Assembly: GCA_030685015.1 (NCBI GenBank)
Contig: JAUXWS010000051.1
Location: 1 to 23,321 of the forward strand
Direction of reading: 5' to 3'
Length of the DNA: 23,321 nt
DNA from: a bacterium
GTDB lineage: Bacteria; CAIWAD01
Position numbers and translations under genes: made by a program. Of this stretch, positions 2,182 through 23,321 are shown one piece after another. Positions within the stretch are counted from its first letter, which is position 1. Each line of letters opens with the position of its first letter. The notes under the pieces are model-generated. The model made no database searches. It was not told the origin of the DNA and saw only the letters and a program-made list of their open reading frames with translations.

Positions 2182-5100
2182 CTACTTGAGCAACAGCATG
2201 CTGCGGCTCTCCTCGTGACCGCCGGCCTGCAGCCGGTAGATGTAGAGGCCGGACGCCACCGGCGTGCCGGACGCGTCGCGCCCGTCGAAGACGCGACGGT
2301 GGGTGCCGACGCCCAGCGGCCCCTGCTCCAGGGTGCGCACCAGGCGGCCCTGGAGATCGAAGACCTCCAGCCGCACCTCGGCCGCCCGCAGGATCTGGAA
2401 TTCGATGGCCGTCTCGGGATTGAAGGGGTTGGGCACGTTCTGGGCCAGCTGGAAGCCGCGCACCTGGGCGGGCGGACCCTCCACTCCCGTGTCTTCGCCG
2501 GACCGGTGCAGGCGCGTCGTGTAGACGTCCTTGAGATCCTCCTTGCCCGAGGCCCGCATGTCCACCCAGCTCAGGTAGACGCCGTCGGCCAGGTCGTGGC
2601 TGAGGAAGGGCTCGCGCTGGGTGTGGAAGAAGTGGAGGACCTGGCCTTCGTAGCGGTGCTCGCCGATGGCGCCACCCTGTGGATTGACATGCGAGTCGCG
2701 GGCCCACAGATCCTTGTAGCCCGTCGTGTCGCCCGCCTCCTCGCTGGCCATGGCCAGCACCAGGCCCGACCAGCCGCCGCGCGGCACCACGGTGGCCGCC
2801 ACGTCCTCCTGCGTGCCGGCGCCGACGCCGACGGGGGTCGAGGTCTCGTCCCAGGCCAGGCTGCCGTCGGCCAGCACATGCTGGGCGTAGACGTCGTCGT
2901 TCTGGCCGTTGGAGAAGTCCGTGTAGGCGATGAAAGCGCCGCCCTGGCGATCGGAGACGAGCACGGGCGTCTTCTGGGACTGGGGACGCAGATCCACGTT
3001 GGCTGTCCACTCCACCGTGCCGGCGGAGTTCATGGAGTTCATGATGAGGTCGCTGTTGGAGAACTCGGCCGTGTAGTCCAGCCAGAGGCCCAGCACGTTG
3101 CCGTGGTCGCCCGCCACAGCGATGGCCTGCTCCTGCTTGCCCGCGCCGCCGGCGAACACGACGCCGCCCGCCGCCAGCACGGGCTGGCCCTGGGCGTTCA
3201 CGAGCTGCGCCATCACGTTGGTGTCTTGCCAGTTGCCGGAATCCCACATCAGATAAACGCCGCCGTTCGGGCCAAGGGCGATGTCGCTCAGCTTCTCATG
3301 GATGGACGGCGTGGAGGTGATGCGCAGACCGTCGTCGCCCCACAGCACATTGCCGGCCTCGTCGAAGGCCTGCACGCCCACCTCGGCGAGGAAGTCGCTG
3401 TAGTCCGTGTCCACGCCGCTCCAGGCGACGATGAGGCGATTGCCGGCGCGCAGCAGGCGGGTGCGCTCCTGGTACTCCAGGCCGCTCTGCTCGTCGAAAC
3501 CGGGGGTGACGGGCCGCGGGCCGTCCCAGACGGGCTGGCCGTTGCCGTCGATGCGGGACAGCCAGGCGCGCTGGGCGGACTCGGAGCCCGCCTCGATCAG
3601 CACGTAGGCGCCGCCGGCGCCGTCGGCCAGCACCTGATAGTTGATCTGCCCGCCGGCGAGGCCCAGGGCGACGGGGATGCCGTTGTTGGGGAAAACGGGG
3701 GCGCCGTTGGCGCGGGACAGCTTCTGCAGGTAGACGTGGGGACCACCCGCGTTGCGCGGATCGATCCAGAAGACCATGGTGCCGTCGGGCTGGGCCAGGT
3801 TCTTGACCCGGGCGCAGGAGCCGGAGATGCCCCAGGCCGAGTCGTGGCCGTTGTTGCCGAAACTGCGGACGCCGGTCGCATTCAGGTGTTGGGTGAAGAT
3901 GCCCAGGCTGCCGCGGCTGAGGTCGCCCCAGGCCACGAACAGCCCGCCCTGGTTGTCCGCCCGCAGGGCGGGCGCGATGGCGTCGGCGCCCAGGTCGGCG
4001 CGATCCACCACCACCGTCCCGTCGTTGCCCCACTGGCGCACGCCGGAGGAGTTGAGCTTCTGCGCATAGATGGAGCTGTAGGTTTCGGCGCGGCCGTCCT
4101 GCCAGACGATGAAAGCGCCGCCGGCGCCATCGCCCAGCACGCGGGCCTGCTGCTGGTGGCCGGGGGCCAGGGTGACGGGCACGCCACCGGCTCCCCACAT
4201 GGCCGTGTTGCCGACGGTCACCTTCTGGCAGTAGACGTCGGCCAGGGTGTTGCCCGGGTCGTTGCGGTTGTCCTCCCACATGAGCAGGGTCGCGCCGTCC
4301 CCGGCATAGGAGAGGCGGGGATTCTTCTCCGCGTTGAAGGCCTGGGCGGCGATGGGAATGCCACCCACGGCGAAGCTGGGCTGCAGGTTGGCGTTGTAAT
4401 GCTGCAGGTAGATGTCGCCGGCGCTGTCGTTGCGCAGGTCCACCCAGGACACGAAGCAGCCCGTGCCGCCGTCCCAGGTCACCTTGACCGAGTGCTGGCT
4501 CCCCGGGACCTGCACCACCGGCACGCCGCCGGCGCCGTTGACGAGGGTGCCGGCGGCCGTCACATGCTCGATGTAGAGGTTGTCGTCTGCGGCGTCCCGC
4601 TTGTCCACCCAGGCCAGGAAGGCGCCGCCCTGTCCGTCGTGCTCCATGGTGAGGGCCTCCTGGTCGCCCACCTCCCCCACGACGAGCAGGCCGTTGGGCA
4701 GAAAGGCGGCGGGAATGGAGCCCGCGGCCGTCACATGGGAGATGTAGATGTCCCAGGTGGAGCCGCGGTGGTCCGTCCAGGCCACCCAGGATCCGCCCGC
4801 GCCGTCGATGCAGTGGCTCTTGGACATGTTCTCGCTGCCGTTGGCGCAGGCCGTGCACATCACGACGCCGTCGGCCGGCCAGCCCGGGGCGAAGGCGCCT
4901 GAGCCGCCCGGGCCGTCCACCAGGCGATTGACGTAGATGTCGCCGCGCGGATCCTCGGCGAAATCGATCCAGCTGACGATGGCGCCGCCGGCCCCGTCGC
5001 CGATCAGGACCGGGTCCTCCTGGCGGATGGGGCCGTTGTTGACGATGAGCGCGTCCACGGCCCCGCCGTTGGAACTCCAGAGGGCCGGCTGGCCGGGCGT

Positions 5101-5355
5101 GGCGGCGCTCAGCTTCTGGGCGAAGAGGTCGCGCATGCCGAAGCGGGTGTCGGACCAGCTGATGATGAACTCGCCGGGTCCCCCTTCCTCGGCCGTGCGC
5201 TGCCACTCGATGTGGTAGCCCTGGCGGACGGCCGCCCCATCCGGCTGGTTCCAGTAGAGGGGCGGGTCCACGGCGGAGGCGCAGGCCACCAGGCCCAGCA
5301 GGCCGGTTCCCCTCAGGGCAAGCCTGCTCCAGGTTTGGCGCGGGGTGCGTCGCAT
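2182..5355 (-). CDS. Large secreted repeat protein with FlgD/T9SS-type C-terminal sorting domain
   Basis: A 1057-residue exported protein of unknown function. The N-terminus has basic residues, a hydrophobic stretch (about 16-28) and either a signal peptidase I site after CASA or a lipobox LVAC; I cannot decide between them. Residues about 35-950 consist of roughly a dozen repeats of 50-70 residues. Their signature is GG-x-hydrophobic-x-x-W-x-D-x-R, then D-I-Y-x-Q-x-L (for example GGAFIVWQDGRAETYSSIYA), which suggests a beta-propeller-like or beta-rich fold. The last 90 residues hold NVPNPFNPETAIEFQI, EVFDLQGRLVRTL and SGLYIYRL, the FlgD Ig-like/type IX sorting module used for cell-surface delivery in FCB bacteria. 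The ATG at 5355 has AAAGGGA about 6 nt upstream. It follows the LVIVD lipoprotein gene by 31 bp, probably in one transcript. Confidence 0.88.
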   Translation of the reverse strand: MRRTPRQTWSRLALRGTGLLGLVACASAVDPPLYWNQPDGAAVRQGYHIEWQRTAEEGGPGEFIISWSDTRFGMRDLFAQKLSAATPGQPALWSSNGGAVDALIVNNGPIRQEDPVLIGDGAGGAIVSWIDFAEDPRGDIYVNRLVDGPGGSGAFAPGWPADGVVMCTACANGSENMSKSHCIDGAGGSWVAWTDHRGSTWDIYISHVTAAGSIPAAFLPNGLLVVGEVGDQEALTMEHDGQGGAFLAWVDKRDAADDNLYIEHVTAAGTLVNGAGGVPVVQVPGSQHSVKVTWDGGTGCFVSWVDLRNDSAGDIYLQHYNANLQPSFAVGGIPIAAQAFNAEKNPRLSYAGDGATLLMWEDNRNDPGNTLADVYCQKVTVGNTAMWGAGGVPVTLAPGHQQQARVLGDGAGGAFIVWQDGRAETYSSIYAQKLNSSGVRQWGNDGTVVVDRADLGADAIAPALRADNQGGLFVAWGDLSRGSLGIFTQHLNATGVRSFGNNGHDSAWGISGSCARVKNLAQPDGTMVFWIDPRNAGGPHVYLQKLSRANGAPVFPNNGIPVALGLAGGQINYQVLADGAGGAYVLIEAGSESAQRAWLSRIDGNGQPVWDGPRPVTPGFDEQSGLEYQERTRLLRAGNRLIVAWSGVDTDYSDFLAEVGVQAFDEAGNVLWGDDGLRITSTPSIHEKLSDIALGPNGGVYLMWDSGNWQDTNVMAQLVNAQGQPVLAAGGVVFAGGAGKQEQAIAVAGDHGNVLGLWLDYTAEFSNSDLIMNSMNSAGTVEWTANVDLRPQSQKTPVLVSDRQGGAFIAYTDFSNGQNDDVYAQHVLADGSLAWDETSTPVGVGAGTQEDVAATVVPRGGWSGLVLAMASEEAGDTTGYKDLWARDSHVNPQGGAIGEHRYEGQVLHFFHTQREPFLSHDLADGVYLSWVDMRASGKEDLKDVYTTRLHRSGEDTGVEGPPAQVRGFQLAQNVPNPFNPETAIEFQILRAAEVRLEVFDLQGRLVRTLEQGPLGVGTHRRVFDGRDASGTPVASGLYIYRLQAGGHEESRSMLLLK

Positions 5356-22552: not shown

Positions 22553-22714
22553 TCTCCGGGATAGGCCCAGGGCGCAGGAGGGCGGCCGCCTGGACGGTGG
22601 AAGCGGAACCGGGCTGGGGTGGATCGCCCTTGTGGGGCCCACTGGACAGCCTTTAAATCTGCACACCGTTTGGGGGCGTGTTCAGCGAACTTTTCAGCGA
22701 AACCCCAGTGCCCC

Positions 22715-22740
22715 GGGAGGGTGGGGAGGTGGTGGGAGGG
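22715..22740 (+). other. G-quadruplex motif in repeat unit 1
   Basis: Runs of G at 22715-22717, 22719-22721, 22723-22726, 22734-22736 and 22738-22740 with loops of 1, 1, 7 and 1 nt fit the canonical G3+N1-7 pattern with one run to spare. The same bases overlap a possible hairpin in which CCCCA (22703-22707) pairs with TGGGG (22722-22726) and CCC pairs with GGG inside it, so the two folds exclude each other. Confidence 0.6.
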
Positions 22741-23012
22741 AAAACATGTGATCTTCACGAAACGGAACAGGATCACCCCGCCCATCCCCACGAACCGTGT
22801 GGATGGTTGGCGGCCATCGCGCATTCTGCGAGCAGGTACCTTGCATCCAAAGAGCGCGAAGGCCGGAGAAACACGTTGGGCGGCAGCCTGGACAGCAAGG
22901 GCGGAGTCGGGTTGGAGTGGATCGCCCCTGTTGGGCCGACTGGACAGCCCCTTTATCTGCACATCGTTTTTAGGCATGTTCAGCGAACTTTTGGGCGAAA
23001 CCCCAGTGCCCC

Positions 23013-23038
23013 GGGAGGGTGGGGAGGTGGTGGGAGGG
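23013..23038 (+). other. G-quadruplex motif in repeat unit 2
   Basis: Identical in sequence and spacing to the motif in unit 1, 298 bp further on (G-runs at 23013, 23017, 23021, 23032 and 23036). The third unit shows its first three runs (23310-23321) before the window ends. Confidence 0.6.
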
Positions 23039-23321
23039 ATCGCGCGTGTTTTTCAAGAAACGGAACAAGACCACACCGCCCATCCCCACGAGCCCTGTGG
23101 GAGGTCGGCATTCGTCGCCATCCCGCGACCATGTACCTGGAATCCAATGGACCCGAGGACAAGGGAAGCATGATGGGCGGCCGCGCAGACGTTGGATCCG
23201 GCATCAGGCTGGGGCGGATCGCCCCTGTCCATGCGTCTGGACGGCTCCTTCTTCTGCACGCCAATCGGGGGGCTATTCAGTGAACTTTTGGGCGAAACCC
23301 CAGTGCCCCGGGAGGGTGGGG

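Follow-up and report, generated by a model that had tools for sequence, protein, structure and literature searches.

The window analysed in this study, a stretch of 23,321 nt that represents the entire contig C51 of the source genome (G000), ends in an array of tandem units of approximately 298 bp, and the question raised by this locus is what these units are and why their central part is kept. A repeat search of the window identified three in-register copies of 147 nt, starting at positions 22580, 22878, and 23175 and spaced by 298 and 297 nt, and over these 147 nt the second and third units share 83 and 76% identity, respectively, with the first. The same search yielded a 241-nt repeat pair with 81% identity in the array, and units 1 and 2, when aligned along their full length, were 78.5% identical across ~298 nt, with a single gap of 1 nt. 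A 45-nt block is identical in the two complete units (22697-22741 and 22995-23039). The array and its identical block, both noticed in a preliminary description of this DNA, are thus real. The contig stops inside the core of the third unit, and because the window comprises all of contig C51, the array cannot be extended rightward. The features of the array are as follows:

22580..22877, + strand: array unit 1, 298 nt (repeat search, alignment)
22681..22690, + strand: upstream box of unit 1, TTCAGCGAAC (family consensus TNCNGNGAWC; alignment of 17 copies)
22711..22740, + strand: G-tract core of unit 1, CCCCGGGAGGGTGGGGAGGTGGTGGGAGGG, G4Hunter maximum 2.28
22878..23174, + strand: array unit 2, 297 nt (repeat search, alignment)
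22979..22988, + strand: upstream box of unit 2, TTCAGCGAAC (alignment of 17 copies)
23009..23038, + strand: G-tract core of unit 2, same letters as the core of unit 1
23175..23321, + strand: array unit 3, ending with the contig inside its G-tract (sequence, repeat search)
23276..23285, + strand: upstream box of unit 3, TTCAGTGAAC (sequence, model match)
23306..23321, + strand: cut G-tract core of unit 3, CCCCGGGAGGGTGGGG, followed by the contig end (sequence)

Each array unit holds one copy of a short, G-rich, dispersed intergenic element, which was named element A. It is composed of a box, TNCNGNGA(A/T)C, with the consensus TNCNGNGAWC, a 20-nt spacer, CCCC, and then GGGnGGGnGGGG..GGnGGGAGGG, the conserved stretch spanning about 65 nt. 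In 17 aligned copies, the core pattern after CCCC is GGG-n-GGG-n-GGGG..GG-n-GGGAGGG; the spacer between the box and CCCC is 20 nt long (22 nt in two of the 17), and the G-tract block measures 29 or 30 nt depending on the copy. The exact box TACGGGGATCNTTT occurs four times in five genomes, in all cases within an element. A role of the box as a free binding site was rejected, as it is present only together with the core. The best explanation, to which we assign a probability of roughly 0.5, is that the array units carry a lineage-specific dispersed intergenic repeat, element A, which is a maintained, quadruplex-capable DNA signal and has been locally duplicated.

Using patterns and a sequence-only model, 11 copies of element A were identified in the source genome, namely 10 full copies and the one cut by the contig end. 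Three of these are on C51, two on C20, and one each on C36, C58, C67, C78, C95, and C101. Thus, the array exists as it was first described, but its core is not private to it and recurs at eight further places on seven other contigs. Because most copies are single and dispersed, the array represents the local multiplication of a dispersed element. A second tandem pair, with cores 314 nt apart, is located on C20, so that tandem duplication is seen at two loci. A search of related genomes, which the preliminary description had suggested, identified seven copies in a sister species (G002) and three diverged copies in another species (G001); in the latter, the box, the 20-nt spacing, and GGG(T/C)GGGTGGGGGTTAGGG are kept and the last GGGAGGG is lost. 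In the source and sister genomes, the full copies score 60-76 bits and the contig-cut copy 36 bits, with the next matches at about 28 bits and below, and the model search found no ladder of decayed copies in these two genomes. A GTDB scan of 84,980 species gave no convincing copy outside the clade; there were isolated matches only, mostly long G/C runs with the appearance of sequence artefacts. The pattern was also absent from viral contigs in a pattern search. On its 5' side, the array of the window is preceded by moeA, moaA, moaC, and a mobB-mobA fusion (Pfam). In the sister species, there is no array after mobA, and ~300 bp without the element are followed by a gene with no Pfam match.

Four loci carry element A in both the source genome and the sister species: those of a metal ABC permease, a mannosidase-type hydrolase, an ABC-2 permease, and recN. 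At these orthologous loci, identity is 95% in the core (95/100), a value biased upward because the pattern used to collect the copies fixes most core bases; the values for the box (45/56, 80%), the spacer (26/52), and the outer flank (141/400, ~35%) are free of this bias. The earlier suggestion that the core is more strictly kept than its surroundings is therefore borne out, and the conservation of box and core against ~35% in the flank indicates that element A has been maintained. Orthologues also have locus-specific variants in common, the CAG.GAAC box of the metal permease locus being one example, and this favours descent over independent arrival. At recN, the element is present in the source and sister genomes, and the intergenic region of the third species (G001) is shorter and contains no element, showing that gain or loss of the element is possible. 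A TATCTT box located about 8 nt ahead of the recN ATG is kept in three species. This box suggests a leaderless transcript, and the element at recN is likely to sit upstream of the presumed promoter.

A sibling family, B, is represented by eight copies in the source genome, eight in the sister species, and one in G001. Its members consist of GGGAACCTGA-N8-TTTTCCGTTTGGCCGCGCGCTCCCC, a small palindrome, and then a G-tract, GGGCGGGTGGGGGGAGGTGGGAGGGCGC, which is similar to the G-tracts of element A. The upstream block of family B resembles an ECF-type promoter, GGAAC-N16/17-cGTT. The type of palindrome is species-specific, TTCGAA in the source genome and TTCTAG in the sister species, and differs even at matching loci, namely beside dnaK and beside the gene starting MSxQxDILALWPELDWIE. 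By inspection, no GTAG or CGTC tag was found alongside the palindrome, and family B has no orientation bias towards genes.

The quadruplex motif was defined as four or more GGG runs separated by loops of 1-7 nt. By sequence, all copies of element A follow this rule, with G4Hunter scores of 2.2-2.6, and the motif was matched by all of the nine B and G001 sequences tested (9/9). Both families, as well as the G001 copies, have retained the G-tracts despite differing loops and flanks. Three contigs end inside the G-tract of an element after its third G-run: C51 in the source genome, and C143 and C264, both with family B copies, in the sister species. The numbers of contig ends in G-tracts expected by chance are 0.03 and 0.09 per genome. 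Such ends fit polymerase trouble at DNA of this kind; repeat-driven assembly breaks are the alternative, above all for C51.

Copies of element A in the source and sister genomes lie between genes, and the element is oriented towards the start of the next gene at all 10 independent loci (10/10, P = 0.002). The downstream genes are those for a metal permease, an ABC-2 permease, a mannosylglycerate-hydrolase-like enzyme, a cysteine desulfurase, recN, tex, aroC, an L-2-hydroxyglutarate-oxidase-like protein, a glycosyltransferase, and an unnamed protein, and no common pathway was found among the genes adjoining the copies. Neither of the two G001 copies with readable neighbours is located upstream of a sense gene, giving 10/12 in total (P = 0.04). 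These two copies and the absence of a common pathway count against the best explanation, as do the unbiased orientation of family B and the element-free recN region of G001. We favour the view that element A is a REP/BoxC-like repeat family whose core could form a quadruplex and which is probably read as DNA upstream of genes. Its G-tracts would fold into a quadruplex when the strand becomes single during transcription, during replication, or under negative supercoiling. A host factor may recognize the DNA of box and core, held at their fixed spacing upstream of genes, and would thereby modulate the downstream genes. It is possible that the array acts as a protein-binding array, which was one of the readings initially proposed. 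The ~300-bp arrays would have arisen when an intergenic stretch with element A was duplicated locally in tandem, after which the core was presumably kept and the rest of the unit drifted. A more specific version, in which element A is a genus-wide composite signal whose box and G-quadruplex, two helical turns apart, are read by a dedicated factor, orientation-specifically upstream of genes, and which is multiplied in ~300-bp arrays, appears doubtful.

The main rival to a maintained DNA signal is a non-autonomous mobile repeat that resembles REPs or MITEs and is mobilized by a Y1 (HUH, RAYT/IS200-type) transposase, with any function being incidental; spread and occasional tandem copying would then explain the distribution. 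We regard this as possible and would entertain it only tentatively. Each of the four near genomes contains Y1_Tnp genes, but a survey of 20 Y1_Tnp loci with the quadruplex pattern revealed no A or B copy next to such a gene. Movement would also account for the presence of the recN element in two species and its absence from the shorter intergenic region of a third, and for the palindrome of family B with its species-specific subtypes at orthologous places, whereas the untagged palindrome, the lack of a ladder of decayed A copies in the source and sister genomes, and the long conservation at orthologous loci speak against it. As far as the available portions of the REP/RAYT reports go (PMC2817692, PMC3733652), those systems likewise comprise dispersed short intergenic repeats in genomes with Y1 transposase genes, and the palindrome of family B is a further likeness; in contrast to them, the present families have no GTAG/CGTC tag, are not associated with Y1 genes, and number about ten copies here where REP copies often reach hundreds, and family A lacks such a palindrome. 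Membership in the BoxC/PIT/TM intrastrand-triplex repeats is very unlikely, although the habit is the same in the accessible text of Holder et al. 2015 (PMC4666352): those repeats of E. coli and other bacteria are low-copy, intergenic, and G/C-rich, form subtypes, combine a conserved C-run with G-tracts (a pyrimidine run followed by purine tracts), have diverse neighbours, and are more often located upstream of genes. The triplex rule given there (three Y-R-R or R-R-Y stems, each 6 nt or longer, with 1-6-nt loops and one mismatch tolerated from 7 nt) is matched by 0/17 copies of element A and 0/9 other copies, whereas the E. coli control passes, and the pyrimidine run of element A is only CCCC. 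The BoxC/PIT/TM repeats are characterized as intergenic without strand bias; element A is intergenic but biased (10/10 in two species), and family B is unbiased. Element A departs from them in its second box, placed at a fixed distance of 20 nt, in sharing the orientation of the next gene in two species, and in its occurrence in ~300-bp tandem arrays. Counting against the best explanation, a comparable E. coli repeat family is described, in the part of that report available, as having no promoter or terminator activity (PMC4666352).

Another reading, that each copy is transcribed into a small RNA or into a structured leader acting in cis, is unlikely. The position of element A ahead of the next gene and in its orientation would suit this reading, and the short hairpins beside the core are slightly stabler than shuffled sequences (Stouffer z of about -2.7 and -2.6, to which the orthologous copies contribute non-independently), but single-strand folding of the whole element is no better than that of shuffles (z from -0.13 to +1.76), and RNAalifold returned only four invariant C-G pairs with a covariation term of 0. 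No match to Rfam 15 was obtained at the gathering score, in line with the initial impression that no known RNA family is involved, and the TATCTT box beside the ATG of recN suggests that the start site lies downstream of the element. The multi-copy structured RNA envisaged in the preliminary description is therefore not supported, nor is the decaying repeated gene: the change between 29 and 30 nt in the core alters the frame from copy to copy, and the copies are intergenic. A coding repeat was rejected, since the variable length of the G-tract disrupts the frame and the copies share no reading frame. The exclusion of a CRISPR array holds, as the units are homologous over all ~298 nt, unlike short near-identical repeats with unrelated spacers. 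That the contig ends within the third unit could point to an assembly artefact or a chance low-complexity match, yet this is hardly credible: dispersed copies of the core are found on other contigs and, at orthologous loci, in another MAG, and the units, which are mismatched at 21% of the ~298 nt, are not one sequence assembled twice.

Taken as a maintained quadruplex-capable signal, element A resembles the bacterial promoter G-quadruplexes at the nas promoter of Paracoccus denitrificans (PMC5123632) and at Deinococcus DNA-repair genes (PMC12607872) in that the motif lies upstream of genes, here including recN. Those are, in the portions of the reports available, separate motifs at individual promoters, whereas here a homologous composite element recurs genome-wide. 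The quadruplex-forming simple repeats of Xanthomonas and Nostoc are likewise lineage-specific, but are short simple-sequence repeats in the text available (PMC4692102); here, there is one quadruplex motif per ~300-bp unit or single copy. An incomplete literature search found no publication on element A. Conservation of quadruplex motifs in bacteria has often been argued from counts; in the present case, the G-tracts and a second box persist in locus-matched homologous copies from two species, with the surroundings at background identity. The family would thus allow a direct test of whether the quadruplex itself is maintained, with element A, family B, and the diverged G001 form as ready-made comparisons.

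Elsewhere in the window, positions 2182-5355 (- strand) encode a large protein whose C-terminus, NVPNPFNPETAIEF...GLYIYRL, resembles a type IX secretion sorting domain by eye. In G001, a Y1_Tnp gene on contig C281 has tandem G-rich repeats of ~22 bp, GTCCGGGGCAAGCCCGGGGGAA, on both sides (at about 1089-1190 and 2125-2367), which may form a REP-type array of another kind.
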